From Actinomadura luteofluorescens (GTDB taxonomy: Bacteria > Actinomycetota > Actinomycetes > Streptosporangiales > Streptosporangiaceae), in the NCBI RefSeq assembly GCF_013409365.1, contig NZ_JACCBA010000001.1, positions 2,790,001-2,854,000 on the forward strand: DNA of 64,000 nt, read 5' to 3'. The notes under the pieces are model-generated. The model was not told where the DNA came from. It was given only the letters and a program-made list of their open reading frames with translations, and did no database searches. The position numbers and the translations under genes are program-made. Below, piece after piece: positions 1,222 through 28,766 of this stretch. The stretch's first letter is position 1, and each line of letters starts with the position of its first letter.

Positions 1222-1245
1222 CTAATGTAACACTTGTCGCATTAG
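1222..1245. promoter_or_regulatory. Palindromic operator between tetR and vat
   Basis: A 24-bp near-perfect inverted repeat with outer arms CTAATG/CATTAG and inner ACA/TGT. It sits 9 bases upstream of the tetR start and 36 bases upstream of the vat start. Its position and symmetry fit the operator of the divergent TetR protein, where binding would block both promoters. Confidence 0.7.
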
Positions 1246-1281
1246 TGGAGACAGACCTCTCCGGCAAGGAGGCGAATCGCC

Positions 1282-1929
1282 GTGCCACTCGTCCCCGCGG
1301 ACCCGACCGTGGTGCATCCGATGCCCGAGCAGCCGCGGGTGGTGCTGCTGAAACCGCTGGTCACCTCGCCGCTGATCGAGGTCGGGGACTTCTCCTACTA
1401 CGACGACCCGGACGATCCGACCGCGTTCGAGACCCGCAACGTGCTGTACCACTACGGCCCGGAACGGCTGGTGATCGGGAGGTTCTGCGCGCTGGGCGAG
1501 GGCGTCCGGTTCATCATGAACGGCGCCAACCACCGCATGGACGGGCCGTCGACCTTCCCCTTCCCGATCATGGGGGGCTCCTGGTCCGAGCACTTCGACC
1601 TCATCACCGGCCTGCCCGGACGGGGCGACACCGTGGTCGGCCACGACGTCTGGTTCGGCTACCGGGCCACGGTGATGCCCGGCGTCCGCATCGGCCATGG
1701 GGCGATCGTCGCGTCCGGCTCCGTCGTCGTCGACGACGTCCCCGACTACGGCATCGTCGGCGGCAACCCGGCCAGGCTCATCCGCCGCCGCTACGGCGAC
1801 GCCGACGTCGACCGCCTGCTGGCGCTGGCCTGGTGGGACTGGCCCCTGGACCACATCACCGAGCACGTCCGCACGATCATGTCCGGCGGCATCGACGCCC
1901 TGGAGGCGGCAGCACCCCAGATGAAATGA
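1282..1929 (+). CDS. vat: Vat-type streptogramin A O-acetyltransferase (xenobiotic acetyltransferase)
   Basis: A 215-residue left-handed beta-helix acyltransferase. It is predicted to transfer acetyl from acetyl-CoA to the hydroxyl of group A streptogramins, abolishing ribosome binding. Family hallmarks include EVGDFSYYDD near the N-terminus, the catalytic loop MNGANHRMDG (probable catalytic His84), the GDTVVGHDVWFG strand and the hexapeptide-repeat region PGVRIGHGAIVASGSVVV. The tail ALAWWDWPLDHI is also typical of Vat proteins. Length matches Vat(A-D), about 210-220 residues. The start is GTG 1282, chosen for the AAGGAGG ribosome site at 1266-1272. It is followed, with a 4-bp ATGA overlap possible, by an erythromycin esterase. 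CatB-type chloramphenicol acetyltransferases share the fold, so the substrate is likely but unproven. Confidence 0.88.
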   Translation: MPLVPADPTVVHPMPEQPRVVLLKPLVTSPLIEVGDFSYYDDPDDPTAFETRNVLYHYGPERLVIGRFCALGEGVRFIMNGANHRMDGPSTFPFPIMGGSWSEHFDLITGLPGRGDTVVGHDVWFGYRATVMPGVRIGHGAIVASGSVVVDDVPDYGIVGGNPARLIRRRYGDADVDRLLALAWWDWPLDHITEHVRTIMSGGIDALEAAAPQMK

Positions 1930-1973
1930 GCCCGCCGTCCCTCCACCTCCCGACCCGGAATCGAGCCGCCAGG

Positions 1974-3254
1974 ATGCCTGCTCCGTCCTCTCCCACCTCG
2001 TTCGCCGACTGGCTCGGCGGCGACGCCGTCCCGCTCACCCACCTCGATCCCGAGGCGCCGTTGGACGACCTGGAGCCGCTGCGCGGCATCGTCGGCGACG
2101 CGCGCGTGGTCGCGGTCGGTGAGAACTCCCACTTCATCACCGAGTTCTCGCTCATGCGCCAGCGGATCCTGCGGTTCCTCGCCGAACGCTGCGGATTCAC
2201 CGTCCTGGCCTTCGAGTACGGCTTCAGCGAAGGCTTCCCGCTGGACGACTGGGCGCAGGGGAAGGGCACGGACGATGATCTGTCCGCCCTTCTCGCCGAA
2301 GCGATCCCGGTGGGGGTGGAAGAGCCCCTGCGCTGGATGCGCCGGCACAACGCCACGGCCGAGGCGCCGGTGCGTTTCGCCGGGATCGACATCCCGGCGG
2401 CAGGCGGATCCCTGCTGCCCGCCCTGACGCCGGTCGCCGCATACCTGCGCCAGGTCGACCCCGAGATGCTCCCGGTGATCCAGGAGGCCATGCGGATCGC
2501 CGGGTCGTTCGCCGGCGCCTCGGCGGCCGCGGCCGCACCGGCCTGGACGCGCCTGGCCGCGGCCGAGCAGGACGCTCTCAGCGCGCTCCTGATGCGCGTG
2601 CTCATCCGGTTCCGTGCCGTCGCCCCGCTGTACCTGTCCCGTGGTGACCAGCACAGTTACGACGTCGCCCTGCGTCGCGTCGAGGCCGCCTGCCACGCCG
2701 ACTACGGCTTCCGCGCCATGGCCGGCCTGTACGCGGGCAGCGGCCTGACCGCCGACACCTCGGCCCGTGACGTCTACATGGCCGGGTCGGTGCGGTGGCA
2801 TCTGGAGCACTTCGGGCCCGGGACGCGCATCGTGCTGGCGGCCCACAACGCCCACATCCAGAAGACGCCGGTCTCCTTCAACGGCCAACTCACGGGCCTC
2901 CCCATGGGGCAGCATCTGCACGACGCCATGGGCGATGACTACGTCGCCCTCGCCCTGACCAGCGTCACCGGACACACCGCCGACATGCGCCCGGACGAGA
3001 ACGCCCGCTTCGGTTTCGCCGTCGACGCGACCGCGCTGCGGCCCCCCGAGCCGGGCAGCGTCGAGGCCGCCTTCGCCGAGGCCGGGCTGGGGCTGAGCAT
3101 CGCCGACCTCAGCAGGTTTCGTACGCGGGATTCCGGCGATCACGGGCCCGGCCGCGTCCGGATCCAGAGCGCCTACGTGGAGACCCCCGTCCTCGACGCG
3201 TTCGACGCCGTCATCAGCACCCCGACCTCCACAGTCGCCGACTATCTGCGTTGA
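1974..3254 (+). CDS. ere: Erythromycin esterase family protein
   Basis: A 426-residue protein of the erythromycin esterase family, whose characterised members hydrolyse the macrolactone ester of 14-membered macrolides. Conserved features are GENSHF at residues 49-54 (Glu50 and His53 in the active-site region), the EYGFSEG stretch, GIDIPAAGG, and HNAHIQK with His291 and His294. The start is set at ATG 1974 because similarity to the family begins just after it. An upstream in-frame ATG at 1926 overlaps the vat stop as ATGA and would add 16 residues by translational coupling. Expression is presumably from the vat promoter. Family membership is clear. Many actinobacterial members have untested substrates, so macrolide resistance is an inference supported by the vat neighbour. 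Confidence 0.87.
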   Translation: MPAPSSPTSFADWLGGDAVPLTHLDPEAPLDDLEPLRGIVGDARVVAVGENSHFITEFSLMRQRILRFLAERCGFTVLAFEYGFSEGFPLDDWAQGKGTDDDLSALLAEAIPVGVEEPLRWMRRHNATAEAPVRFAGIDIPAAGGSLLPALTPVAAYLRQVDPEMLPVIQEAMRIAGSFAGASAAAAAPAWTRLAAAEQDALSALLMRVLIRFRAVAPLYLSRGDQHSYDVALRRVEAACHADYGFRAMAGLYAGSGLTADTSARDVYMAGSVRWHLEHFGPGTRIVLAAHNAHIQKTPVSFNGQLTGLPMGQHLHDAMGDDYVALALTSVTGHTADMRPDENARFGFAVDATALRPPEPGSVEAAFAEAGLGLSIADLSRFRTRDSGDHGPGRVRIQSAYVETPVLDAFDAVISTPTSTVADYLR

Positions 3255-6607: not shown

Positions 6608-6940
6608 GTGAACGAACTGGTGCGCTGGCAGACCGAGAACGGGACCATCGTCGTGGAGACCGACGACCTGGAGCCGGGGTTCCAGTCGGTGTCCCGCGCC
6701 GGCGATCTGATCCACGACGCGGCGGGCAAGCTGGAGGACGCGTTCCAGAACGTCCGGGACGCGGCGCAGACGGCGCTCTCGTCGCTGCGCGGAGGCGACC
6801 TGAACCCCGACGGGATCGAGCTGGAGTTCGGCGTCAAGCTCAACGCGGCGGCCGGGGCCGTCATCGCGAAGACGACCGCCGAGGCCCACCTGAAGGTCAA
6901 GATGACGTGGGGGCGGCCGCGGACCGAGGAGGAGGCGTAG
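6608..6940 (+). CDS. Trypsin-co-occurring domain 1 (Trypco1, CU044_2847 family) protein
   Basis: A 110-residue protein matching the Trypco1 pattern. It has an N-terminal strand pair (ELVRWQTENGTIVVETDD), a helical stretch (AAGKLEDAFQNVRDAAQTALSSLRGG), then the diagnostic IELEFGVKLNAAAGAVIAKTTAEAHLKVKMTW. This domain is known as a companion of trypsin-like proteases in predicted bacterial conflict systems; its biochemical role is not established. Here it is the first gene of the operon and ends 7 bases before the trypsin-VMAP gene, as the association predicts. It probably works as a sensor or adaptor that presents a signal to the protease. Start GTG 6608; the transcript may be leaderless. Confidence 0.88.
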   Translation: MNELVRWQTENGTIVVETDDLEPGFQSVSRAGDLIHDAAGKLEDAFQNVRDAAQTALSSLRGGDLNPDGIELEFGVKLNAAAGAVIAKTTAEAHLKVKMTWGRPRTEEEA

Positions 6941-6947
6941 CCGCATC

Positions 6948-8618
6948 GTGGACGACTGGCAGTGGCGCGCCTGGGTCGGCCCGCCGTCCGGCGGCAAGCT
7001 CGGCGCGGCGTTCCTCGTCACCGCCACGCGGCTGCTGACCTGCGCCCACACCGTCCACGGCCTACCGGAGGCGCGCGTCGGGTTCCCCGGCCTGCTGGAG
7101 GACCTGCCCGCCAGGGTCGTGCGGCGCGGCGACTGGGAGCAGCCGGGCGACCCCGGCGACGTCGCCGTCCTGGAACTGCGCGAGCCCGTCGCGCTGACCC
7201 CCGCCACGCTGGCCGCGCCGGACGGCCTGCACGAGGGGAGCCTCGGCGGGCGGACGTTCGGGGTGTGCGGCTTCCCCCGCCGTCCCGACCAGAACGAGCG
7301 GCACGCGTCCGTGACGACGTCCCCGCATCGCGGGATGCGGCGCGAGTGGTGGGAGCTGAAGACCGGCCAGGGCGACTGGCTGGAGGAGGGCTACAGCGGG
7401 TCCGCCGTCTACGACCCCGCGACGGGCGAGGTCATCGGCATGGTGACGAACGCCGAGCTGCGGCAGGGGGGCCGGGCCGACCTCGGCTGGATGCTGCCCG
7501 TCGGACACATCCGTACCTACTGGGAGGAACTGGACGACCTGCTGCCGCTCCGGTGGCTCACCCCCGAGGCCCGCCGCGAGCTGCGGGAACTCCTGGACGG
7601 CGTCCGCTACACCGACCCGCTCGCCGCCGACCTCGAACGGATCACCGGCCGGTGCGCGTTCGGCGGTTTCCGGTCGGCCTGGGGGTCGGTGCGCTACGTG
7701 GCCGAGGGCTGGGCGCAGGACCGGCTCGTCCAATACGTGGCGGCGCTCGGGCGGCACTTGCCCGGCCCCGCCCGCCCGCGGCTCGCCGCGTGGTCCGCGC
7801 GGCACCTGCCCGGCGCCGCGCCCGCCGCCCCGCGCCGGGGACCCGCGTCGGTGATCGTCCGGCTGGAGCGGGCCACGTTCGACAACGCCTTCGACGTGAC
7901 CGTGCACACCTGGATCGACGGCGCCGAGGGGCCCGGGCGGCCGACCGAGCGCGTCCCGGACCGGCGGGTGCGGCCTGTGGTCGAGGCGGGCGTGGCGGCG
8001 CTCGCGCCCGCGCTGTTCGGCCGCGACTGGATGATCGAGTTCGCGGTGCCGGAGGGCTGGCTCGGCAAGCCGTTCGAGCAGTGGCACGTCGACCCGCGCA
8101 ACAAGATCCCCATGCGCAGGTACCCGGTGGTGGTGCGGGACGTGGAGCGGCTGCGGCCCGACTCCTTCCGCCGCGACCAGGCCCACCACCGCTGGCGGCT
8201 GCTGAACGAGCGCGGCCGCAGCGACCCGCGTCCCATCGCGTGCGACGCGCCGCGCAAGGGCAGCGACTTCCAGGACTGGCTGGAGGCCAACATCGACTTC
8301 TGCGTCCTGGTGTACGGGTCGCGTCCGGTGAAGAGCTGGCTGACGGCCGCGCTCAACAACGGCATCCCCGTCATGATGTGGACGCGCACCCCGTGCGACG
8401 CGTCGTCGCACGGGGACTGCCGAGGGCACCGCGTCCTCGACGAGCTGACCGCGGCGGTCGGGGACCGGCACCCAGGCGACCTCCCCCAGCTGGCGCTCGC
8501 GCTGCGCAAGGCCGCGCTCGTCGCCCCCAAGGGCGCGCCGCACTGCGGGCGCGAGCTGACGCTGCTGTGGGACGATCCGTCCCGGCTCCCCGACCCCCCG
8601 CTCGCGATGGAGGTATAG
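6948..8618 (+). CDS. Trypsin-like protease fused to VMAP C-terminal domain (conflict-system protein)
   Basis: A 556-residue cytoplasmic protein with no signal peptide. Residues ~5-205 form a trypsin-like protease with an intact catalytic triad: His34 in LLTCAHTVHG, Asp71 in PGDVAVLEL and Ser150 in EGYSGSAVYD. The remainder (from about residue 300) is the vWA-MoxR-associated protein C-terminal domain. It contains the FAVPEGWLGKPFEQWHVDP motif, PVVVRDVERL and a paired-cysteine/tryptophan-rich end. In vWA-MoxR-VMAP ternary systems the VMAP protein links the MoxR ATPase and the vWA protein to an effector or protease. Start GTG 6948; the stop abuts the MoxR start with no gap. Targets of the protease are unknown; a partner protein or the host's own proteins are possible. 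Confidence 0.88.
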   Translation: MDDWQWRAWVGPPSGGKLGAAFLVTATRLLTCAHTVHGLPEARVGFPGLLEDLPARVVRRGDWEQPGDPGDVAVLELREPVALTPATLAAPDGLHEGSLGGRTFGVCGFPRRPDQNERHASVTTSPHRGMRREWWELKTGQGDWLEEGYSGSAVYDPATGEVIGMVTNAELRQGGRADLGWMLPVGHIRTYWEELDDLLPLRWLTPEARRELRELLDGVRYTDPLAADLERITGRCAFGGFRSAWGSVRYVAEGWAQDRLVQYVAALGRHLPGPARPRLAAWSARHLPGAAPAAPRRGPASVIVRLERATFDNAFDVTVHTWIDGAEGPGRPTERVPDRRVRPVVEAGVAALAPALFGRDWMIEFAVPEGWLGKPFEQWHVDPRNKIPMRRYPVVVRDVERLRPDSFRRDQAHHRWRLLNERGRSDPRPIACDAPRKGSDFQDWLEANIDFCVLVYGSRPVKSWLTAALNNGIPVMMWTRTPCDASSHGDCRGHRVLDELTAAVGDRHPGDLPQLALALRKAALVAPKGAPHCGRELTLLWDDPSRLPDPPLAMEV

Positions 8619-9594
<976 letters not shown>

Positions 9595-9605
<11 letters not shown>

Positions 9606-12600
9606 CCGGCTCCGGGACGTGCTGTCCGCGATCGGGCCGCCGCCGGACGCCCGCGAACTGAGCGAGATGCTGTGGCTCGCCTGCCACATCTCCCCGTCCG
9701 GGGAGCGGCCCCCCGCCGTTCCGCCCGTCCCGCCACCGGCCGTGGACGAACCCGTGGACGCCCCCGGCCCGCTCAAGCCGCCGGAACCCGCCGCCCCGCG
9801 CCCGCCCGAACCGCTGACCGAACTCCACCCGCGCCCGGACCCCGGAGCGGAACCGGTGGGCCGCGCGTCCGAGGTGCTCGTCCCGACCGCGCCGATGCTG
9901 GCCGACCCCCTCGGCGTCCAGCGGGCGCTGCGCCCGTTGAAGCGGCGCGTCCCGTCCCGGCACCGCGCCGAACTGGACGAGGACGCCACCGCCGCGCGCA
10001 TCGCCGACACCCGCCTGTGGGCGCCCGTCCTCGTCCCGTCGCCCGAGCGCTGGCTCGGCCTCAGCCTGGTCGTCGACACCGGCCCCACCATGCGGCTGTG
10101 GCGTCCCCTCGCCCGCGAACTGGCCGAGACGCTGCTCCGCCAGGGCGCCTTCCAGGACGTCCATCTCAGCTACCTCGGCGAGAAAGGCCACGTCGCTTCC
10201 ACACCCGACGCGCCGCCCCAGGACCCGGGGACGCTCCTGGACGCCTCCGGGCGGCGGGCCGTCCTCGTCCTCAGCGACTGCTCGGGCCCCCACTGGTGGA
10301 ACGGGCGCGCCGTGCGGGCCGTGCGCCGCTGGGCACAGGCCGGGCCGACCGCGATCGTCCAGCCGCTCGCCGAACGCCTCTGGCGCCGCACCGCCGCCCC
10401 GACCTCGCCCGGCCTCGCCGCCCTCCCCCGCCCCGGCGCCCCGAACACCGACCTGCGCTTCGCTCCCTACGACGGCGCCGCCGGGCCCGGCGTGCCCGTC
10501 CCCGTCCTGGAGATCGCGCCGCGCTGGTTCGGCGCGTGGGCCCGCCTGGTCTCCGGCTCCGACCCGCAACCCGCCGCCGTCGCGATGCTGCCGGACCGCC
10601 CGTCCGGGGCGGCGCCGGTGCGGCGCGAGCGGGAACTCCCGATCGCCGAGCGCGTCCGCCGCTTCCTCGCCACCGCGTCCCCGGACGCCGCCGAACTCGC
10701 CGCCCACGTCGCGGTGTCCGTCCCGTCGCTGCCGGTGATGCGCCTGATCCAGCACCGGATCCTCGGCGGCTCCGGCCCCGGCCAGCTCGCCGAGGTGCTG
10801 CTGAGCGGCCTGCTCCGCCCCGCCGGCGGCGTGCGCTACGAGTTCGTCCCCGGCGCCCGCGAGGCCCTCCTCGACACCCTCCCGCGCCCCGAGGCCCTGC
10901 ACACCCGGCACGTCCTGGAAGCCGTCTCAGCCGAGATCGAGCGCCGCGCCGGAACGTCCGCCGAGACGTTCCGCGCCCTCCTCCCTGCCGACGGCGGCCC
11001 CGTCGTCCTCACCGCCGAAACCGACCACTTCGCCCTCCTCACCCCCCAGGCCCGCTCCCACCTCGTCCCCGACCCCATGACCCCGCTGCCGAGCCCGGCC
11101 CGACCCCCGACCCTGCTGGACCTCGCCGACGTTCCCCTCTTCGAGCTGGCCGGCGACGGCTGGCCCCGCCATCCGCGCCCGACGGTGATCGGTGTGGACG
11201 GCGAGGACCCGGTGTCGGTCGACGTCCTGCACGGCGAGCCCGCCCTCCCGCACGGCCTGATCAACGGCCCCCGGGCGGTGCGGGGAGCGCTGCTGCGCAC
11301 CCTCGTCATGGGCCTGGCGCTCGATCACTCCCCGAGCACGCTGAACTTCGTGTTCGTCGGCTACAACGGGGGCGCGTCCTTCACCGAGCTCGGGCAACTT
11401 CCTCACGTCGCGGCGAGCGCCACCACCGAACGGACCGACTCGCCGCCGTTGGGCAGGCTTCCCGAGGCCCTGGAAGCCGAGCGGGAGCGACGCGAGTCCA
11501 TCCTCCAGAACGCCGGGGTCACCTCCTGGGACGAGTACCAGGAGGCCATCGCCAGCGGCCGTCCACTGATTCCGCTGCCCGCCCTCGTCGTGATCATCGA
11601 CGACGCCGGACCGTTGCTGCACGCCCGGCCGGAACTCCTCAACCCTCTGGCCGAGCTCTGCGACGCGGGACCGGCACAGGGGCTCAGGTTCATCTTCTGC
11701 TCCCCGAACGACGCACCCACGCCGCCGGGCCTGTCCGGCTACGCCGGCTGGAACGTCGGCTTCCCCAGTCGGATGGGCGATCACCTCGCCTTCGTTCACA
11801 TCTTCGCGCAGGAGGCCCGCCCCGCCTTCGAGCCCGCACGCATCTCACCCGACGAATGCGCCCTCCTCTCCGGGATGATGCGACAGCGCCCAGAGAGAGC
11901 AAACGAACTCACGTGGCCCGAAGGACCTGCGGAACCCGCGGATAGGGAGCCGGAGCCGCCCGCCCGGCCCGGGGCCGTCTCCAAGTTCGACGTGCTGCGG
12001 TTGAACGGCGGCGGGCCGAGCGGAATGTTCTCCGAGGCATGGGCGCAGCCGGCCGACACCCCGCGCGATCCGGCGATCGGGTACGGGCCGGGCGGCCATC
12101 CCCTCAGCCTGTATCCGCTCGACCGCTCCTCGGGCATTCCGCACGGCCTGGTCGTCGGCAGCCCGGAAGCCCGCCAGAAGGTCGTGCGCGCCGTCACCCT
12201 TGCCCTCACCGCAGGGCACTCCCCGGCAGACCTGCAATTCCTCTTCGCCGGGCTGGGCCAGCACCCCCTCGGCGACCCCATAGACCTTCCGCACGTCCTC
12301 TACTCCGAGGAAGAACTGCTGGGCTCGCCGGAGAGACTCCGGCGGTTCTTCGAGTTCCTGTCCGACGAGCTCGAAGCACGTTCCGCGGGCCCGCCGCAGG
12401 ACGTGTCGCGGCCCTGGAATATCGACGCCGACGAGTTCAATCTCGGCGAGATGTACGAGCGGTTCCGCCAGGACCCTCATTCGGTCAGCCGGGCCTGGTG
12501 GGACTTCTTCGAGGATTACCAGCCGGGCGAGCAACTCTCAGCCCTACCGACCCCGCCCGAGACGCGGCCGCGCCTGCTGGTCGTGGTCGACCTGTCGCTC

Positions 12601-14217
12601 ACGTTCCCGTCCAGCAGGCGCGAGGTGGGCGAGACGCTCCTCTCGCTGGCGCAACGAGGCAGAGCGCTCGACGTCCAACTGCTGCTCACCTCGTCCACCG
12701 TCGAGAACACCACCATCTGGGATCGCTTCCTGCCCCTCCTCGGCTGGCGCATCGCGGCGGACCACCTCCCGCCCGACCAGCTCCAGCGCGTCCTCGGCCA
12801 GGCGAACCTCCAGTTCCCGGACGGCGAACCCACGGCCTACTTCCTCGCCGGAGGCGGCTCCCCCCAACGCTTCACCGTGGCACCGGAACCCCCTCGCGCC
12901 ACCATCGCCGACTTCGTCCGACGCACACGCGCGCCCCAACAGGGCTCGTCGGCGGACAGCATCGGCGTCGAAGACATCGGCCGCATGTTCGCCGAACTGG
13001 ACGCGGCGATCGAGAACGAGCGCAGGATGATGGGGGGCGAGCCCTTCGACGGCGCGACGGTACAGGCCGCCCTGCAGGAGATTCTTTGGGGCGATGCCGA
13101 CACCCTGCGTTCAGGCAGGGGGCTCACCCTCAGGAATCTCGTCTTCCCGGCTCCGTTCAGGCCGGAGATGATCGTGACGGCGAGATTGTACGGAAAAATG
13201 CTGAACGAACTCGGGCTCCTGTCTCCGGGCACCCTCTCGATCCGCCCATTTCACGAGCTGTACAGACTGAGAGGCGATCCCCGGGACCGACCGGGCCTCC
13301 TCTCGGCTTTTCGCGGTCACATCCTCCTTGTTCGGGACGAGGCGGTGCCGACGCCGACTGGCGAGTCGGCGCGCCTGTGGCTCTCCGACACCCTTAACTC
13401 AGGGCTGGCCCAGGGGGCAGAAGGCCCCTTGGTCATTCTTTGCGGAGAACCGGAGGAGCTGAGCGCGAGGCTGGTCGGATTCGTACTCGAGTCGAGGTAT
13501 GTGCGCGCTTTCGAATCGGTCCCCCCACCGCCGCGCACTCGGCCTTCGCGGGGCCGGACCATGCGGCTCGGGAGCGATCCGGAGACGGGCGAGTCCGTCA
13601 TCCTGGATTTCGACGTCGACCGCCATCTGCTCATCAGCGGTCCGTCCCGTCCCGAGAAGGCGGCTCTAGTGGACGGCATCGTCGACAAGCTCGCTGCGAG
13701 CGGCAACGGACAAGAGCGCCTCATCTACGTCCTGGACACGGGGACGAGCCAGCGCGACCGTAAGAAGGCAAGGGCGTGGCAACGGAGGGGTGTGCGGCAC
13801 ACCGGGTCGCCGGGCGACTTCCGTACGCTACTGACGGAGGCCTCGGGGAGCCTCAGAACCCATCCCCCGAGCGATGGTGGCCCGGAGATCCACCTTGTCG
13901 TGGCGTCCCATCCGGACACGCGCAGGAACCACGACTCCCTGGCCCAGGTCGTCCCCCATCTGGGAGCGCTGCTCGATGAGGACGTCCACCTCGTGCTGGC
14001 GCTCAACGACCTCGGCGCCCCGGGGCCGTTCAGACCCGTGATCGCCAGGCTCCGGCAGCTCGACTCGCCCGTCTTGCTGACCCATTACGTCGGCGGCGCC
14101 GAAGCCTCTCTCTGGGACCTGCCCGTCTCGTCAGTGGGACCGCTGTTCGGAGACCATGCGCTGCTGGCGCGTCCCGGGCGGCAGCGGCGCGTCCGGCTCG
14201 ACGGCGTCGGCCGATGA
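9595..14217 (+). CDS. Giant vWA protein with degenerate EccC-like FtsK and EccA/CbxX-like modules
   Basis: A 1540-residue soluble protein, first half of the SAV_2336 N-terminal type. Residues 1-45 are helical and 46-105 Pro-rich. A vWA-like domain starts near 150 (MIDAS-like DTGPT, 161-165), and a helical/winged region spans ~350-460. The rest resembles type VII secretion ATPases with lost catalytic sites. FtsK-1 (~500-760) has HGLINGPRAVRGALLRTL at 553-570 where EccC has its P-loop, and GYNGG for DFKGG at 589-593. FtsK-2 (~805-1110) has GSPEARQK at 855-862. A CbxX/EccA-like AAA (~1120-1310) has PAPFRPEMIVTAR exactly in place of its Walker A, lysine to Met1192. FtsK-3 (~1315-1540) has GPSRPEKA, keeping Lys1355. 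Residues ~946-978 look like a 2-oxoglutarate dehydrogenase N-terminal motif. It overlaps moxR by 11 bases and probably serves as vWA partner and scaffold or effector. Confidence 0.85.
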
Positions 14218-14256: not shown

Positions 14257-14832
14257 ATGGCACGGCCGAGGAAGTTCGATGAGGGGCTGGCCGTGGAGGC
14301 GGCCATGCGGGCCTTCTGGGCGGACGGGTACGAGGCGACGTCAACGCAGGAGCTGTGCGCGGCGACCGGGCTCGGGCGCAGCAGCATCTACAACACGTTC
14401 GCCAGCAAGCGCGACCTGTTCGTCAAGGCGCTGACCCACTACATGGACGTGCGGACCACCCGGCTCGTCGACCATCTGCAGGGCGGCGAGGGGACGGTGC
14501 GCGAGCGGCTCCGGGCGGTCATGGACTGGGCCGCCGAACCCGACGGGGACGACCCGTCCGGGTGCCTGGTCGTGAACGCGACGGTGGAGCTCGGCCCACA
14601 CGATCCCGACATCGCCGAGCGGCTCGAACGGGACCGGCGGCGGCGGTTCGCCACGCTCAAGGCGGCGATCGAGGACGGGATGCGCGCCGGGGAGATCGAC
14701 GCCGCGAAGGACGCGGGCGCGCTGGCGCACTTCATGATCTCGACGATCAGCGGCATCCAGGTGGCCGCGCGGGGCGGCGCCGGCCCCGACGCCCTCAGGG
14801 CCGTCGCGGACACCGCGATGCTCTCCCTCTGA
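14257..14832 (+). CDS. TetR-family regulator of the adjacent drug exporter
   Basis: A 191-residue TetR repressor. The helix-turn-helix is at residues ~28-50 (TSTQELCAATGLGRSSIYNTFASKRDL). The C-terminal ligand-binding domain has the pattern GCLVVNATVELGPHDPDIAERL seen in regulators of MFS pumps (LmrA/YxaF-like). Start ATG 14257, seven bases after a palindrome that would make it autoregulatory. The MFS exporter gene follows 71 bases after the stop on the same strand, beyond a hairpin terminator. It has its own operator-like sequence similar to the one before this gene. The protein is therefore most likely the local repressor of the pump, released by a drug substrate. Confidence 0.88.
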   Translation: MARPRKFDEGLAVEAAMRAFWADGYEATSTQELCAATGLGRSSIYNTFASKRDLFVKALTHYMDVRTTRLVDHLQGGEGTVRERLRAVMDWAAEPDGDDPSGCLVVNATVELGPHDPDIAERLERDRRRRFATLKAAIEDGMRAGEIDAAKDAGALAHFMISTISGIQVAARGGAGPDALRAVADTAMLSL

Positions 14833-14835
14833 TCC

Positions 14836-14860
14836 GGGCGGCCGGCGGGCCGCCCTTTTT
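14836..14860 (+). terminator. Hairpin with T5 tract after tetR
   Basis: GGGCGGCC (14836-14843) pairs with GGCCGCCC (14848-14855) across a 4-base loop and is followed by TTTTT, a classical intrinsic terminator. It would separate the tetR transcript from the exporter promoter. Confidence 0.75.
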
Positions 14861-14873
14861 CACGCCCCGATTT

Positions 14874-14894
14874 TGTACTGATCTATCCAATACA
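14874..14894. promoter_or_regulatory. Operator-like site in front of the MFS exporter
   Basis: A 21-bp imperfect palindrome with arms TGTAnTG (14874-14880) and CAnTACA (14888-14894). Its reverse complement shares 15 of 19 bases with the sequence at 14218-14236 before tetR. It ends at the ribosome site AGGAGGA (14894-14900) of the exporter, so bound protein would block transcription. Confidence 0.62.
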
Positions 14895-14903
14895 GGAGGA
14901 CCG

Positions 14904-16103
14904 ATGCCACTGGCCGTCTACGTGCTGGGGATGGCGATCTTCGCGCAGGGCACCTCGGAGCTGATGCTGGCGGGGCTGCTGCCGGGCATGGCGCACGACC
15001 TCGGCGTGTCCGTGCCGGCCGCCGGGTGGCTGATCTCGGCGTTCGCGATCGGGATGCTGGCCGGGGCGCCGCCGCTCGCCGTCCTGACGCTGCGCTGGCC
15101 GCACCGGCGGGCGATGCTGGCGTTCCTCGCGGTGTTCGCGCTGACGCACGTGGTCAGCGCGCTCACGCCGGGGTACTGGACGCTGTTCGCGATGCGGATC
15201 GTCGGCGCGATCGTGTACGCGGGGTTCTGGGCGGTGGCGGCGGCGACCGCCGTGAACCTCGTACCGCGCGACGCGCGCGGGAAGGCGATGGGCGTCGTCG
15301 CGGGCGGCCTCACGGTCGCGGCGATCGTGGGACTGCCCGCCGGGACGGTGGTCGGGCAGCATCTCGGCTGGCGGGCGGCGTTCTGGGCGGTGGCGGCGAT
15401 GTCGGCCGCCGCGATGGCGGGCGTGGTCGCGACGATCCCCGCCGCGCGGCCGGACGCCGCGCCGCCCCGGGTGCGGGACGAGGTGCGCGCGATGGCCGTC
15501 CCCCGCCTGTGGCTGCTGTACGGGACGACGGCCGTGGCCACGAGCGGGCTCCTCGCCGTCTTCGGCTACCTGGGCGCGTTCCTGACGGAGACGACGGGCA
15601 TCGCGGAGGCGTGGGTCCCCGGCGTGCTGGCGCTCTACGGAGCCGGCGCGCTCATCGGGATCACGCTCGGCGGGCGGACGGCCGACCGGTGGGGCGTCCA
15701 GACGCTGTACGCGGGCTTCGCCGGACTCACCGTCGTGTCCGTGCTGCTCGCCCTGACGGCGAGATCGCCCCTTCCCGTGGTGGTCCTGGTGTTCCTCCTC
15801 GGGTTCGTCGGATTCGGGACGAACCCGACCCTCAACTCGCGGGCGTTCGGGCTGGTGGACGGCGCGTCGACGCTGGTCGCGGCCGGGAACGTCGTCGCGT
15901 TCAACATCGGCATCACGGTGGGCCCGTGGCTCGGCGGGCTCGCGATCGGCGCGGGGAGGGGCTACCCGTCCACGGCCTGGATCGGGGCGGCCCTCGGTGC
16001 CGCGGCGATCGGCACCGTGGCGATCGGCGCCCGCACGCGCGGCGGGGCCCGGAGGCGCTCCGCAGGGGAGGCCGAGCCGGCCAGGTCCACGATCAGCGCG
16101 TGA
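14904..16103 (+). CDS. MFS drug exporter, Cmx/CmrA chloramphenicol-efflux-like
   Basis: A 399-residue 12-TM major facilitator transporter, a proton-driven drug exporter in the cytoplasmic membrane. The N-terminus (PLAVYVLGMAIFAQGTSELMLAGLLP) and the sequence DLGVSVPAAGWLISAFAIGMLAGAP closely follow the Cmx/CmrA chloramphenicol pump family. Other features shared with it are the RIVGAIVYAGFWAVA segment (antiporter motif region) and GGRTADRWG between TM8 and TM9. Start ATG 14904 follows AGGAGGA. The adjacent TetR gene and shared operator imply substrate-induced expression. The 3' end runs 13 bases up to the end of the convergent secreted-protein gene. Chloramphenicol is the substrate of characterised relatives; the actual substrate here is not known. 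Confidence 0.85.
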   Translation: MPLAVYVLGMAIFAQGTSELMLAGLLPGMAHDLGVSVPAAGWLISAFAIGMLAGAPPLAVLTLRWPHRRAMLAFLAVFALTHVVSALTPGYWTLFAMRIVGAIVYAGFWAVAAATAVNLVPRDARGKAMGVVAGGLTVAAIVGLPAGTVVGQHLGWRAAFWAVAAMSAAAMAGVVATIPAARPDAAPPRVRDEVRAMAVPRLWLLYGTTAVATSGLLAVFGYLGAFLTETTGIAEAWVPGVLALYGAGALIGITLGGRTADRWGVQTLYAGFAGLTVVSVLLALTARSPLPVVVLVFLLGFVGFGTNPTLNSRAFGLVDGASTLVAAGNVVAFNIGITVGPWLGGLAIGAGRGYPSTAWIGAALGAAAIGTVAIGARTRGGARRRSAGEAEPARSTISA

Positions 16104-16115
16104 GGGGGCCGGCGG

Positions 16116-17360
16116 TCAGGAGCAGGAGGCCGCGCGGAACGCCCACAGGGCGCGCCGGCCCGGGTGCTCCGCCAGGGTGAAGATGCGGTGGCGGCCCCGG
16201 TGGCAGGACAGGTCCTCCGGTCCGTAGGAGACCGTGCGGCTCCGCACGGGGGCCCAGCCGCGCCCGGTGTAGCGGGTCGAGAAGAGCCGGCCGCGCTTGC
16301 CGCTGCGGCTCTGGGTGAACCACCACTGCCCGTGCGTCCTGACGGCGCCCTGGACCCTGTCCACGGGGAGCCGCGCGCCTCCGTCGGCGCTCGCGACGCC
16401 GCCTCCGGCCAGTGACTCCAGTGGCCAGGAGACCACCCGTCCCCGCGGCCAGTTCGGGCGGCAGTACTCGCCCGCGATGAGGACGTGCGGCCACGTGGTG
16501 CGGTCGACCGCCGTCCACGACATGCGCAGCGGGCCCGAGCCCCGGCACTTGGCGCCGACCCGGCCGCGGGCGAAGTGCCAGCTGCTCGTCTGGGCCATCA
16601 CGTACCGGAATCCGTGGGCGTAGTAGGTGCCGCCGTACAGCCCGATCCGGTCGGCGTGGCGTGTCGAGCCCGCGTTGCTCGCGGTCAGGTCGAAGATCTG
16701 CCGCATGTCGAACTCGCGCAGCCCGTGCCGGGTGTCGGCGACGTACAGCTTGTCGCCGTACCAGGCGATGCCGCCCGCGTGGATGCCGACGTCGGTGTAG
16801 GTGGGCCGCCCGTCCCGCATCTCCGGCGCGACGAGCAGGACGTGCCGGTACGCGCGCCGGTCGGGGTCGACGAACGTGAGCCTGACCCGGCCGCCGTTGT
16901 GCCACGACACGAGGATCGGCCTGACTCCGCCCGCCCATCCCTCGCGCGCCGCGGCGTCCGAGACGGTCGTGACGCCCTGCGGGACCCAGTTCCTGGTGGT
17001 GCTGTCCGCCCCGTCGAAGCAGTAGACGAGCGAGCCGGCGGGCACCCCGGCCGCCCGGCCGCAGCCGCCGCCGAGCCTGGCGCGGCCGGACGAGCGGAGC
17101 AGCGCGGCGACGCCGGTCCTGCGGAGCCTGCCGCCGAGCGCCCTGACCGTCCCGCTCCGGTCGGTGCCGCGCCGCAGATCGAAGTCGCGCGGGTTCAGCG
17201 GTGCCGCCACGGTCCACGCCTGCGCCGCGGTCCCCGCCCTCGGCTCCGCCGGTGCGGGCACCGCGTGGGCGATGCCGGGGGTGGCCGCCGCCAGGACACC
17301 CGCGGCGACGGCCGCCGTCCCCGGCCACCGGACCGCCGTCACTGTGCGTTGCAAGATCAT
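16116..17360 (-). CDS. Secreted protein of unknown function
   Basis: A 414-residue exported protein. It has a signal peptide with an Arg-containing n-region, a hydrophobic core (GTAAVAAGVLAAATPGIAHA) and probable cleavage after AHA. The mature region is Trp/Tyr/Gly-rich with repeated strand-like blocks (VGIHAGGIAWYGDKLYVADTRHGLREFD and HGFRYVMAQTSSWHF). This suggests a beta-propeller or other all-beta extracellular fold, perhaps binding cell wall or carbohydrate. Six cysteines in the mature part could pair. Start ATG 17360 is preferred over 17408 because the signal peptide begins there; neither has a good ribosome site. It lies downstream of, and on the same strand as, the M6 protease, but a strong hairpin separates them. 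Confidence 0.78.
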   Translation of the reverse strand: MILQRTVTAVRWPGTAAVAAGVLAAATPGIAHAVPAPAEPRAGTAAQAWTVAAPLNPRDFDLRRGTDRSGTVRALGGRLRRTGVAALLRSSGRARLGGGCGRAAGVPAGSLVYCFDGADSTTRNWVPQGVTTVSDAAAREGWAGGVRPILVSWHNGGRVRLTFVDPDRRAYRHVLLVAPEMRDGRPTYTDVGIHAGGIAWYGDKLYVADTRHGLREFDMRQIFDLTASNAGSTRHADRIGLYGGTYYAHGFRYVMAQTSSWHFARGRVGAKCRGSGPLRMSWTAVDRTTWPHVLIAGEYCRPNWPRGRVVSWPLESLAGGGVASADGGARLPVDRVQGAVRTHGQWWFTQSRSGKRGRLFSTRYTGRGWAPVRSRTVSYGPEDLSCHRGRHRIFTLAEHPGRRALWAFRAASCS

Positions 17361-17531: not shown

Positions 17532-19598
17532 TCAGCGCAGGGCGCACGTCCCCGAGTCGGACTTCGACGGGTCGCTCTCCGAGGTCCCGGTCAGGCTGAG
17601 CCGCGCGTGGCGGGCCGCGCCCGGCTTCGCCTTCGCCCAGACCTCGACCATCGTGCGGCCGTTCGCCGGGGCGGTGGCCAGCTCGTTCGGCAGCCACGTC
17701 GTCCAGCCGTCACCGGACACGGCCGCCTTGAGGCGGAACACGTCGGAGCCCTGGCGGCCGTCGCCGCCCCGGCCCGTGTTGGTGAGCGCCATCGTGCACT
17801 TCGTCCAGCCCGCGCCGGTCGGCCGGGCGGGGCCGGAGTCGACCCGCACGCCGCGCCTCTGCGGCCCGGCACCGTCCAGCGAGCCGACCGCGACCGTGTA
17901 GGACAGGACGCCCTTGCGGTCACGCCTGAGGTTCAGGACGTAGAAATGCAGCCGGTTCGCCTGGTCGACGTACTCGTACTCGCTGCCGGAGTTCGTCCCT
18001 GCGTGGTAGAGCGCGTCCGAGAGCTGCCGGTAGTCGCCGATCGTCATCTTCTTCGGGGTGCCGTCGGGCAGGACGAAGTCGACCTTGTCGATGTCCTGCG
18101 GGTTGGCGTCCTCGACCCAGATGAACGGGGCGCGGTCCTGGTCCTTGGTCTTGGCGAGCAGGACGCCGGAGTCGGGCGTGAAGGAGTCGGTGCCCATCCG
18201 GTCGACGACTTCGAGGGTGTAGTTGTCGTAGCCGCCGCCGTCGCACAGCGGGTCGGTGCCGGTGTCGCACTTGGGGCTCTTGTCGCCGCCCTCGCCGAGC
18301 TTGACGTTGATGCCGGTGAGGCCGCCCTTGCCCGGGTCGACCGACCGGGCGGTCACGTTGGCCACGACCATCCCGGACGCGGCGAGGGCGTCCCGGCTGA
18401 GCTGGAGCACGTTGCCGCCGTCCACCATGCCGAGCTTCAGCTTGTTGCGGAGCATGTGCTGCGCGCCCATGGACCCGCCGCCCGTCGCCGGGATCGTCCA
18501 CCGGCTGTGCGGTCCGCCCGGCCCGTTGAACGTGCCGCGGCTGAGCATGTCCCACGGGCCGCTGTAGGCGCGGCGCGGCGGGTCGCCGTAGGGGTTGTTG
18601 TAGTTGTCGCCGATGCCGAGGATGTGGCTGAACTCGTGGGCGTACACCGACATGCCGGAGCTCTCGGCCTGCGTCGAGGAGACGCCCGGGATGGCGTTCG
18701 GCCAGATCGTCGAGCCGGCCTGCCAGGACGTCCAGGGGACGTACCGGGTCTTCACCCAGTTCGTCAGGCCCGGGTCGCCCGGCCCCCACTCGTCCGGCAC
18801 CTGCTCCTTCGTGCCGAACTTCATCTCGCCGAACTCCTGCCAGGTGGACGACTCGTCCTGCCCGGCGCTGAGGAAGAAGACGAAGTCGAACTTGCCCGCC
18901 GCCTCCTCGCCGACGTCGGCGACCCACGCGTCCCGCGCGTCCTTGCGCAGGTCGCGGTTGCAGGTGTCGCCGGCCGGGCATCCCGTTCCGCCCTGCATGC
19001 CGTCCACGCCGTACTCGTGGTCCTTGGCGGGCATCTGGTAGGCGCCGAACCCCGTCAGGTTCACGCCGAACCGGCCGCCGGAGTCCTCCATCCAGTACTC
19101 GTGGAGGGTGTGGCCGTGGTTCAGGTCCTGCGGCTTGTTGAGGAGGTCCTGGTAGAACTTCGCCACCTGCGCGCGCGGCACGTCGCCGACCTTGACCGGG
19201 TTGCCGAAGACCGACGAGTTGACCGGCTGCGTGACCTCGAACGGCTGGTTCGCGTAGTCGGCGAGGACGACCGCGACGTTGAAGTTGCGCACCGACCCCT
19301 TGCGGGCCGGGTCCGCCCACGAGGTGCCCGGGATCGCGGTGTAGTCGTCCCAGGTCATCGTGTCGGGAAGCTCGTAGTTCTGGGGGTCGATCGGGCGCGG
19401 GGCGCCCGCCGCGAACGCCTGGGCGGACGGCTGCGCCCGCTGCCACGGCTGCGTCTGCGGCCAGTGCCGCATCTGCCAGGGGTTCGCGGTCGGTTTCGGG
19501 ACCCGGGGCCCCGGCTGCGCGGCGGCCGGGACGGCCGCGAGTCCCACGACCAGCCCCATCACCGCCGCGGGCACCAGCAGAATCTTCTTGGCGCGCAT
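17532..19598 (-). CDS. Secreted M6-family metalloprotease (immune inhibitor A-like)
   Basis: A 688-residue secreted zinc protease. A signal peptide (MRAKKILLVPAAVMGLVVGLAAVPAAA) is followed by a propeptide-like Pro/Gln-rich stretch and the M6 catalytic domain. That domain carries the zinc motif HEFSHILGIGD, with His321, Glu322, His325 and Asp331, an HExxHxxGxxD arrangement. A downstream GPWDMLSRG segment gives the Met-turn. The C-terminal ~200 residues, with paired cysteines and a strand-rich sequence, are probably a carbohydrate- or membrane-binding module. Relatives degrade extracellular proteins, including host defence peptides in pathogens; here a role in nutrient release is more likely. 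Start ATG 19598; monocistronic with its own terminator. Confidence 0.9.
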   Translation of the reverse strand: MRAKKILLVPAAVMGLVVGLAAVPAAAQPGPRVPKPTANPWQMRHWPQTQPWQRAQPSAQAFAAGAPRPIDPQNYELPDTMTWDDYTAIPGTSWADPARKGSVRNFNVAVVLADYANQPFEVTQPVNSSVFGNPVKVGDVPRAQVAKFYQDLLNKPQDLNHGHTLHEYWMEDSGGRFGVNLTGFGAYQMPAKDHEYGVDGMQGGTGCPAGDTCNRDLRKDARDAWVADVGEEAAGKFDFVFFLSAGQDESSTWQEFGEMKFGTKEQVPDEWGPGDPGLTNWVKTRYVPWTSWQAGSTIWPNAIPGVSSTQAESSGMSVYAHEFSHILGIGDNYNNPYGDPPRRAYSGPWDMLSRGTFNGPGGPHSRWTIPATGGGSMGAQHMLRNKLKLGMVDGGNVLQLSRDALAASGMVVANVTARSVDPGKGGLTGINVKLGEGGDKSPKCDTGTDPLCDGGGYDNYTLEVVDRMGTDSFTPDSGVLLAKTKDQDRAPFIWVEDANPQDIDKVDFVLPDGTPKKMTIGDYRQLSDALYHAGTNSGSEYEYVDQANRLHFYVLNLRRDRKGVLSYTVAVGSLDGAGPQRRGVRVDSGPARPTGAGWTKCTMALTNTGRGGDGRQGSDVFRLKAAVSGDGWTTWLPNELATAPANGRTMVEVWAKAKPGAARHARLSLTGTSESDPSKSDSGTCALR

Positions 19599-27134: not shown

Positions 27135-28595
27135 TCAGCCGCCGGTGCCGGTGCCGCCCGCGCCGGTGCCGCCGTCACCGCCGCCACCGTTGCCGCCGCC
27201 GCCCGTGCCGCCGCCGGTACCGCCGCCGCCCGTACCGCCGCCACCCGGCGAGGAGGGCGTGGTCGACGGCGTCTCGGTGGTCGGCGTGTCGGTCGGGGTC
27301 TCGGTGGTCGGCTGCTCCTGCGTCGGCCGGGACGTCTGGGGCGGCGGCGTGTTGCGGTGCGTCCGGGTGCGGGTCGGCGCGGGGGCCTCGGGCTCCTCGG
27401 TCGTCGGCGTCTCCGAGACCGTCCCGGAGTCGGTGACCACCGGGGTGGCCGGGTCGTTCGAGGAACCGTCGCCGCCGCCCTTGGCCGCCATGAACAGGCC
27501 CACGACCAGCGCCAGCACGGCGATCGCGGCGACCGCGCCGAAGATCGGCGCCTTGGACTTGCGCTCGGGCTCCCAGTTGTCGTACCGGGCGCGGCCGGCC
27601 CCGGTCTGGGGCCCCGCCGGCGGGAGGGTCCCGGTGTAGTCGCGGGGCGCGACGTGAGGCGCGCCGCGGCCCGGCTGGGTGGCGCCCGCCATCATCCCGG
27701 CGCCGGCGAGACCGCCCGCGGCGAGCGTCGACCCCTCCGCCAGCATCGTGGTGGCCTGGGCCGGGTCGTCCATGCGGGTCTGCCCGGCGCCGCCCGGGCC
27801 GCTGCCGATCAGCGCCATCATGATCTGCTGCGCGGTGGGCCGCCGCTCCGGTTCCTTGACCAGGCAGGCCCCGATCAGCCGGTGCAGGTCGGGGGGCACG
27901 CCGTCCAGCGACGGCGGCTCGTGCATCACCCGGTTGATCACCGCGACGACGGTGTCGTCGCCGAACGGGGGGTGCCCGGTCGCGGCGAACACGATCGTGG
28001 TGGCCCAGGCCCACACGTCCACGGCCTCGGTGAGGGTGGCGCCCGCCACCTGCTCGGGCGCCATGTAGGACGGGGTGCCGATCGCCTTGGTCGCGTTGGT
28101 CTGCCCGGTGTCCAGGGCCCGCGCGATACCGAAGTCGATCACTCGGGGGCCGTCCGGCGCCATGATCACGTTGTGCGGCTTGAAGTCGCGGTGCACGATC
28201 CCGGCCTGGTGGATCGCGACCATCGCGGTCGCGGTGCCGATCGCGAGCCGGTCCAGCGGCGCACCGCTGATCGGGCCGGTCTCGGTGACCTGCTTGTACA
28301 GCGACGGCCCCGGCACGTACTCGCTGGCGATGTAGGGCTGGTCGCCCGCGACGTCGGCCTCCAGGACCTGCGCGGTGCAGAACCGGGCCACCTGCTTGGC
28401 CGCCTGCGCCTCCCGGACGAACCGGTTGCGCGCCATCGTGTCCCCCGCCAGGTCGGCGCGCAGAAGCTTGATCGCGGCGCGGTTCCCGGAGGCGTCGACC
28501 CCGCCGTAGACGACGCCCTGGCCGCCCTCGCCGAGCCTGTCGACGATCTCGTAGGAACCGAGCCGCCGGGGGTCTCCCGGCTGCAGCTCAGGCAT
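27135..28595 (-). CDS. Transmembrane Ser/Thr protein kinase (PknB-like) with Thr/Pro- and Gly-rich ectodomain
   Basis: A 486-residue receptor-type kinase. The kinase domain covers residues ~15-275: glycine loop LGEGGQGVVYGG, ATP-binding Lys in AAIKLL, catalytic loop IVHRDFKPHN, DFG in VIDFGIA, activation loop with GTPSYMAPEQ. A juxtamembrane region and one membrane segment (~350-370, IFGAVAAIAVLALVVGLFMAA) follow. The outside part is not PASTA repeats. It is a Thr/Pro/Glu-rich stalk (TETPTDTPTTETPSTTP) and a terminal run of Gly with interspersed Thr/Asn/Asp. Such a tail may be glycosylated or wall-embedded. Start ATG 28595 is supported by AGGAG. It is divergent from the S9 peptidase gene. Confidence 0.9.
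   Translation of the reverse strand: MPELQPGDPRRLGSYEIVDRLGEGGQGVVYGGVDASGNRAAIKLLRADLAGDTMARNRFVREAQAAKQVARFCTAQVLEADVAGDQPYIASEYVPGPSLYKQVTETGPISGAPLDRLAIGTATAMVAIHQAGIVHRDFKPHNVIMAPDGPRVIDFGIARALDTGQTNATKAIGTPSYMAPEQVAGATLTEAVDVWAWATTIVFAATGHPPFGDDTVVAVINRVMHEPPSLDGVPPDLHRLIGACLVKEPERRPTAQQIMMALIGSGPGGAGQTRMDDPAQATTMLAEGSTLAAGGLAGAGMMAGATQPGRGAPHVAPRDYTGTLPPAGPQTGAGRARYDNWEPERKSKAPIFGAVAAIAVLALVVGLFMAAKGGGDGSSNDPATPVVTDSGTVSETPTTEEPEAPAPTRTRTHRNTPPPQTSRPTQEQPTTETPTDTPTTETPSTTPSSPGGGGTGGGGTGGGTGGGGNGGGGDGGTGAGGTGTGG
27136..27250. repeat. Low-complexity GGN-codon repeat at kinase 3' end
   Basis: About 38 codons are almost all glycine, forming short reiterated GGCGGC/GGCGGT units that encode the C-terminal poly-Gly tail of the kinase. 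The DNA is prone to slippage, so the tail length may vary between strains. Confidence 0.7.
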
Positions 28596-28766
28596 TGACA
28601 ACTCCTCAGCCCGCGACGACGAAAGTGCTTGGGGAAGCTTTGAGCTTACGCGAGCGCGGACACGGGCACGGGACATTCCCGTCCACCACGCGACGACCCG
28701 TGATCATAGAGGGCAGGAGGCCGCCGTGCTCCGCAGTTCCAGACCGTCCTGGCAGACTCGGCTGCC

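Follow-up and report, generated by a model that had tools for sequence, protein, structure and literature searches.

We describe a 1540-residue protein encoded at 9595..14217 of a 64,000-nucleotide stretch of DNA from the soil actinobacterium Actinomadura luteofluorescens (contig NZ_JACCBA010000001.1, positions 2,790,001 to 2,854,000 of the forward strand; this whole stretch is called the window), which forms the vWA-effector component of a predicted VMAP ternary conflict system. Its effector half is an array of cassettes resembling pieces of host machines, and these are replaced block by block between homologues, an organization that looks new. At slightly less than even odds (a probability of roughly 0.48), we favor the reading that this effector is a polymorphic bait array which senses invader proteins and fires the MoxR ATPase and trypsin-like protease encoded beside it, its cassettes being recombined to track the ligands.

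Architecture of the effector protein

The gene, which an initial annotation of this DNA made from the sequence alone gave as coding for 1540 residues, is a single open reading frame with an ATG start and no internal stop. Its parts are as follows:

9595..14217, + strand: vWA-effector component (SAV_2336 type), 1540 aa, from the open reading frame and NCBIfam
9646..10953, + strand: conserved N-terminal part, residues 18-453 (SAV_2336_NTERM, NCBIfam NF041121, E 1.2e-117)
11062..11964, + strand: module 1, residues ~490-790, EccC ATPase1-like, with GPRAVRGA at the Walker A position
11965..12909, + strand: module 2, residues ~791-1105, nearest EccC ATPase1, with GSPEARQK at the Walker A position
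12412..12549, + strand: OdhA/KGD N-terminal docking hairpin inside module 2, residues ~940-985 (PF16078 at 952-978)
12910..13554, + strand: CbbX/EccA-like AAA module, residues ~1106-1320, lacking Walker A; the most polymorphic cassette
13555..14214, + strand: module 3, residues ~1321-1540, EccC ATPase3-like, with GPSRPEKA at the Walker A position

A DTGPT motif lies at the presumed metal site of the putative vWA domain in the N-terminal part. By sequence and predicted fold, the C-terminal 1,060 residues comprise three FtsK/EccC-like modules and one CbbX/EccA-like AAA module, and confident models predict RecA/AAA folds for the effector half. The similarity to EccC and EccA first recognized from the sequence alone lies beyond chance: the effector matches the EccCa (E 3.7e-40) and FtsK_SpoIIIE (E 3.9e-17) profiles, and the profile of its family recovers T. 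curvata EccC (6.1e-77) and EccA1 (1.5e-12). The three FtsK-like modules of the initial annotation are present, but not in the EccC order that it gave them. When 37 EccC-type hits (P0069-P0105) were compared, with their domains assigned by position, module 1 was nearest ATPase1 in 37/37 and module 3 nearest ATPase3 in 37/37; module 2 was nearest ATPase1, not ATPase2, in 36/37. Hence a D1-D2-D3 order is rejected, and the predicted order is D1, D1-like, CbbX-like, D3.

The AAA module originally called EccA/CbxX-like is a true homologue of that group, but it is about equally close to CbbX and EccA. Residues 1106-1320 have the CbxX-clade AAA fold; with Walker A missing, membership of the EccA family was rejected. 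So was membership of the EccC family (TIGR03924 138.3 against a cut-off of 509.15 bits, TIGR03925 88.5 against 346.55), and the EccC-like protein of the same genome likewise falls under both cut-offs. No N-terminal transmembrane helices were seen in the effector, the top 19-residue hydropathy (on a simple scale, not a predictor) being 1.62 at residue 657, within module 1.

Block-wise replacement of cassettes

Homologues were drawn from a database clustered at 90% identity, in which the ~8,000 candidates with the most shared words were scored; the results given cover the best 120 of 121 homologue matches and, for the N-terminal part, the best 120 of 733. Genomes compared are species representatives. 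Among the matches listed, the nearest homologues carry the names Actinomadura luteofluorescens, other Actinomadura and Spirillospora in their annotation, and a contig scan recovered 18 related loci, all from Actinomadura. The N-terminal part is 73-92% identical across loci and up to 99% in homologues; the effector half varies block by block.

One case is the pair P0011/P0012, which differ only at 1111-1320: identity per 30-residue window is 25-56% there (44% over the CbbX-like block), 93-100% over 451-1110 and 97-100% after 1321. Other pairs differ chiefly in the CbbX-like block (P0020/P0021), in module 1 (P0002/P0016), chiefly in module 3 (P0018/P0023), or in both the CbbX-like block and module 3 (P0022/P0026). 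Conversely, a block may be common to otherwise different alleles, as in P0004/P0020, with a CbbX-like block 89% identical and a module 1 at 49%. Sixteen pairs, made up of 13 proteins in four groups and not independent, have an N-terminal identity of at least 98%, and in 15 of them the CbbX-like block is ~51% identical or lower. When the 25 proteins bearing the OdhA-like insert (see below) are clustered by single linkage at 75% identity, the CbbX-like block yields 17 classes and modules 1 and 3 yield 8 each, whereas the two halves of module 2 yield 3 and 1. The Spearman correlation of pairwise identity with that of the N-terminus is 0.80 for module 2b, 0.22 for module 1 and 0.26 for the CbbX-like block (276 non-independent pairs of 24 of these 25 proteins; P0014, without an N-terminus, was left out). 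Mean entropy rises from 0.24 bits in the N-terminus to 1.62 bits in the CbbX-like block, whose median identity between alleles is 41%. Synonymous divergence is 0.14-0.49 for the N-terminus but reaches 0.78-1.40 for this block (seven comparisons; two of eight loci, L062 and L009, left out). Whole-block exchange of old alleles would lead one to expect such an excess, which points to their import and not to fast amino-acid change alone.

Many discrete allelic classes, single-block replacement between close alleles and blocks common to different alleles would also suit allorecognition, in which the polymorphic cassettes act as kin marks and a mismatch between fusing or protein-exchanging hyphae fires the system. 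We consider this improbable: no delivery route or partner locus is known to us, none having been looked for, and such systems as a rule have a variable vWA component according to the available sections of Kaur et al. 2020 (eLife; PMC7159879).

With respect to mechanism, the whole-protein search of the own genome had five matches at its threshold, namely the effector gene, two SAV_2336 paralogues, the EccC-like protein and OdhA; it thus detected no silent spare cassette for module 2, the CbbX-like block or module 3. The same genome encodes 25 AAA stretches matching the EccA/CbxX profile, several of them paired in tandem within frames of ~870-1240 aa, from which the CbbX-like cassette may derive. 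A diversity-generating retroelement was also considered. Such elements are marked by targeted adenine mutagenesis; here a ~210-residue block with conserved borders is replaced whole, which does not resemble the product of such mutagenesis, and this candidate looks unlikely, though no reverse transcriptase search was made.

Some relatives carry other blocks. P0036 has a caspase-fold domain with Ser at the expected Cys position, and P0133 and L022, which represent the same locus in one species, lack module 1 and have a kinase-like domain whose catalytic motifs are altered, P0132 being a second such protein; the motifs of P0036, P0133 and L022 were judged by eye, by the usual motif rules for caspases and kinases. 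In P0142 a zf-HC2 zinc finger (residues 543-571) lies behind the conserved N-terminus as another captured regulatory piece.

Loss of Walker A motifs

None of the four sites retains Walker A in the present copy, just as first noted: GPRAVRGA (558-565), GSPEARQK (855-862), PAPFRPEMIVTAR with Met1192, and GPSRPEKA (1349-1356). Module 1 keeps Walker-B-like acidic residues (VVIIDDAG). Motif and identity counts for the family were made on 64 of 66 aligned homologues, P0065 and P0066 being left out. A strict GxxxxGK[ST] is found in 0/64 for module 1, 0/64 for module 2, 0/59 for the CbbX-like module and 19/60 for module 3; the looser [GA]xxxx[GA]K in 0, 0, 1/59 (P0050) and 41/60, respectively. The family rule, as read from these motifs, is that three modules lack Walker A and the fourth frequently retains it. 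By sequence, the claim of four dead ATP sites thus stands for this copy and, at three sites, for the family. It fails as a family rule at the last site because the P-loop of module 3 is intact in 19/60 homologues, and intact Walker motifs in homologues are what the initial annotation itself had named as contrary evidence. Since the Lys is retained in 41/60, module 3 may bind nucleotide in many homologues.

A 2-oxoglutarate dehydrogenase hairpin within module 2

Residues 952-978, overlooked by the initial annotation as an N-terminal segment of 2-oxoglutarate dehydrogenase, match Pfam 2-oxogl_dehyd_N (PF16078; E 5e-8, 32.8 bits, cut-off 27). The insert segment alone retrieves M. smegmatis KGD (PDB 8p5r, E 4.6e-4), a match that is weak (0.023) within the whole effector half; two short helices are predicted at the insert, and neither Pfam nor NCBIfam gave a match to 2-oxoglutarate dehydrogenase E1o/E2o catalytic domains in the effector. 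Compared with OdhA of the same genome, the insert is 50% identical in amino acids and in 79 of 110 nucleotides, and the insert of homologue P0018 is closer to that OdhA (28/36) than the effector's own (18/36). This insert of ~40 residues is carried by 25 of the 64 aligned homologues, the other 39 having a short unrelated linker or none, and its hairpin core DPxSV-x3-W-x2-FF-x2-Y-x-PG is retained in 25/25 carriers. PF16078 itself was detected in 24 of the best 120 of 121 homologue matches; in the genus at large, at least one copy occurs in 65/65 genomes, mostly in an OdhA-sized frame.

In the available sections of PMC10415282, the N-terminal segment of KGD is a helical hairpin with intermolecular contacts, suggested to bind a partner subunit, and cryo-electron microscopy of OdhA finds this hairpin mobile; the available part of PMC9681731 has the N-terminal region of eukaryotic E1o binding E3. 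The presence of an OdhA/KGD docking hairpin within a conflict effector looks new: no report of an OdhA-like insert in a conflict protein was found in the literature available in part, and the supplementary tables of PMC7159879 could list one.

Type VII secretion context and a dominant-negative alternative

That no type VII gene lies nearby was borne out for EccC and WXG100: whole-genome searches gave the effector gene as the only EccC-profile match, and no WXG100 match, within the window. EccD had no match genome-wide, but its positive control was also silent, and EccB and EccE were not searched for. Elsewhere in the genome (G000:C1:5682424-5687301; L068) a stand-alone EccC/EssC-like protein is encoded, which has 1,508 residues and a single strict P-loop. 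A putative WXG100-type match lies near it, and biotin-carboxylase and Tad-type ATPase genes lie within the same 19 kb. Because of this EccC-like protein, the nearby WXG100-type match and OdhA, active counterparts of two of the mimics may exist in the same cell.

The same observations are consistent with the main rival to the bait array, a dominant-negative poison. Here the trypsin would cut, the dead EccC-like modules would be built into the EccC/FtsK rings of the cell itself, and the OdhA hairpin would dock to the pyruvate dehydrogenase/2-oxoglutarate dehydrogenase (PDH/ODH) supercomplex, so that both are blocked and the infected cell is arrested. Dominant-negative effectors are proposed in the available text of PMC7159879, and the mobility and suggested partner binding of the actinobacterial hairpin (PMC10415282, in the sections cited) would fit such a role. 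Yet conserved self targets predict conservation of the poison, and variability is in fact highest in the CbbX-like block, followed by modules 1 and 3; we therefore regard this alternative as unlikely.

Operon and genomic setting

The genome is a single contig of 9.62 Mb. Upstream of the effector gene are:

6608..6940, + strand: Trypco1 (trypsin-co-occurring domain 1) protein, 110 aa (Pfam PF19493, E 1.9e-26)
6948..8618, + strand: VMAP, 556 aa, with trypsin-like peptidase, VMAP-M8 and VMAP-C (Trypsin_2 3e-10, VMAP-M8 5.9e-32, VMAP-C 5.2e-42)
8619..9605, + strand: MoxR-type AAA+ ATPase, 328 aa (Pfam AAA_5, 1.5e-9)

The order on the + strand is Trypco1, trypsin-VMAP-M8-VMAP-C, MoxR AAA+ and effector, the 3' end of the MoxR gene (9605) overlapping the effector start (9595). 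By eye, the VMAP trypsin has its His/Asp/Ser positions (LLTCAHTV, DVAVLEL, GYSGSAVYD), and the ATPase has intact Walker A (GPPGTGKST) and Walker B (VLLVDEID) motifs. Its MoxR name derives from AAA_5, a MadB-family match under the cut-off and the operon, the bpMoxR match (0.012) also being under the cut-off. Profile matches to Trypco1, VMAP and AAA_5 agree with the MoxR-vWA-trypsin operon proposed earlier, and the architecture recurs: trypsin-VMAP, MoxR and effector have the identical order in all 14 loci, of the 18, with sufficient upstream DNA. A VMAP-C with an N-terminal signaling domain, a P-loop-intact MoxR, a vWA component whose C-terminal effector domains vary and a Trypco partner for the trypsin-type VMAP together identify this operon, by domain content, as a VMAP ternary conflict system, with a predicted function in defense or cell death. 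PADLOC gave weak partial matches only.

It follows that the earlier statement that no system of this composition had been described has to be withdrawn: VMAP ternary systems with FtsK ATPase effector domains, predicted to be inactive, are listed in the available sections of PMC7159879, which also propose decoy or dominant-negative action for effectors. A follow-up (PMC8195603, available in part) has sister systems with active and inactive FtsK effectors. The terms 'EccC', 'T7SS', 'type VII' and 'oxoglutarate' do not occur in the main text of PMC7159879.

Next to the conflict operon (14257-16180, +) a TetR regulator is encoded ahead of an MFS chloramphenicol-efflux transporter of Cmx/CmrA type (NF033135, 478 bits against a cut-off of 400); a similar TetR gene is also 3' of the operon in 15 of the 18 related loci. 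Elsewhere the window encodes an erythromycin-esterase-like protein (1245-3254, +), a weak M6-type peptidase match (17532-19598, -), a Ser/Thr protein kinase (27135-28676, -) and a DPP-IV/S9 peptidase (28767-30851, +).

A proposed polymorphic bait array

Under the bait-array reading, the effector would present copies of host machines whose Walker A sites are dead by sequence, namely EccC-type modules and a CbbX/EccA-type AAA module, together with the OdhA hairpin. Invader proteins that bind those machines or bear type VII-like signals, such as phage proteins or delivered effectors, would be captured by the bait; MoxR would remodel the complex and the VMAP trypsin would be turned on, with containment or cell death as the outcome. 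Recombination would replace single bait cassettes, so that recognition keeps up with changing ligands. We favor this scheme because of the polymorphism of the mimics, the signal-reading counterpart of module 3 and the possible active counterparts in the same cell. A recognition locus in antagonistic coevolution would be expected to look like this, with a polymorphic half of mimics attached to firing components that stay constant (MoxR, trypsin, VMAP, vWA). In the available part of PMC6954902 the EccC ATPase3 domain reads the EsxB signal, and we count it for the bait array that the variable module 3 corresponds to this domain; likewise, the available part of PMC5994694 reports that allelic EssC C-termini determine substrate specificity in S. 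aureus. Strong effector variability between close relatives, with recombination suggested as its source, is described in the sections of PMC7159879 available. The cassette polymorphism strengthens the idea of a decoy or sensor raised in the initial annotation, which remains plausible.

Several observations weigh against this reading. The retained P-loop and Lys of module 3 in the homologues counted above do not fit a uniformly dead bait, and a second PF16078 copy, outside OdhA, is present in only 7/65 genus genomes (frames of 1519-1652 aa), of which one is the present genome and another, L063, was read as carrying a member of the effector family. P0012/P0013, slightly below the 98% cut, have CbbX-like blocks 94% identical. 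Clustering at 90% hides alleles with the same cassettes, yet the 24 insert-bearing clusters hold only 30 member sequences. Values of synonymous divergence (dS) near or above 1 at ~40% protein identity are rough, and for module 1, the CbbX-like module and module 3 the ratio of nonsynonymous to synonymous divergence (dN/dS) lies between 0.54 and 0.93; as this is below 1, positive selection is not proved.

These ratios of the variable blocks exceed that of the N-terminus and, together with the Walker A losses, could also reflect relaxed constraint, with scaffold modules drifting without function and recombination being incidental. This too strikes us as quite improbable, given that long open frames are retained (most aligned members have 1,400-1,740 aa, some being partial or shorter), the predicted folds are confident, dN/dS stays under 1, the hairpin core persists in every carrier and blocks differ as wholes.

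If the bait-array reading holds, allele pairs differing in one cassette are natural experiments and should differ in recognition. The triggers of VMAP-type systems are predicted in the literature available in part; candidate partners here would be the PDH/ODH supercomplex for the OdhA hairpin and type VII-type signals for the EccC ATPase3-like module. More tentatively, and with doubt prevailing, one orthologous Actinomadura locus might constitute a bacterial integrated-decoy immune receptor, in which dead host-machine mimics and a hairpin from a tricarboxylic acid-cycle enzyme are reshuffled as cassettes under balancing selection, much as for the integrated decoys of plant NLRs or further polymorphic recognition loci.

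Relationship to known systems

The locus shares with the VMAP ternary systems (MoxR, vWA and VMAP; PMC7159879) the same genes, a Trypco-partnered trypsin, a variable effector half and FtsK modules predicted to be inactive; it differs in single-block exchange inside one effector, which is not described in the sections of that paper available. With EccC/EssC (4nh0, 4n1a) the effector shares module folds and sequence, its module 3 resembling the signal-binding ATPase3, but it lacks the N-terminal hydrophobic helices, lacks a strict P-loop in modules 1 and 2, lies far under the family cut-offs, and has the CbbX-like module and the OdhA hairpin inserted. Residues 1106-1320 share fold and sequence with the CbbX/EccA AAA+ proteins but are without Walker A. 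The insert and the OdhA/KGD hairpin (PF16078) have the same core motif and a predicted hairpin; in the effector, however, there is no catalytic domain and the hairpin sits inside a putative pseudo-ATPase. Finally, the integrated decoys of plant NLRs are polymorphic and join host-target copies that are inactive to an immune sensor. The proteins are unrelated, and the resemblance of the Actinomadura effector to them would be one of analogy only.

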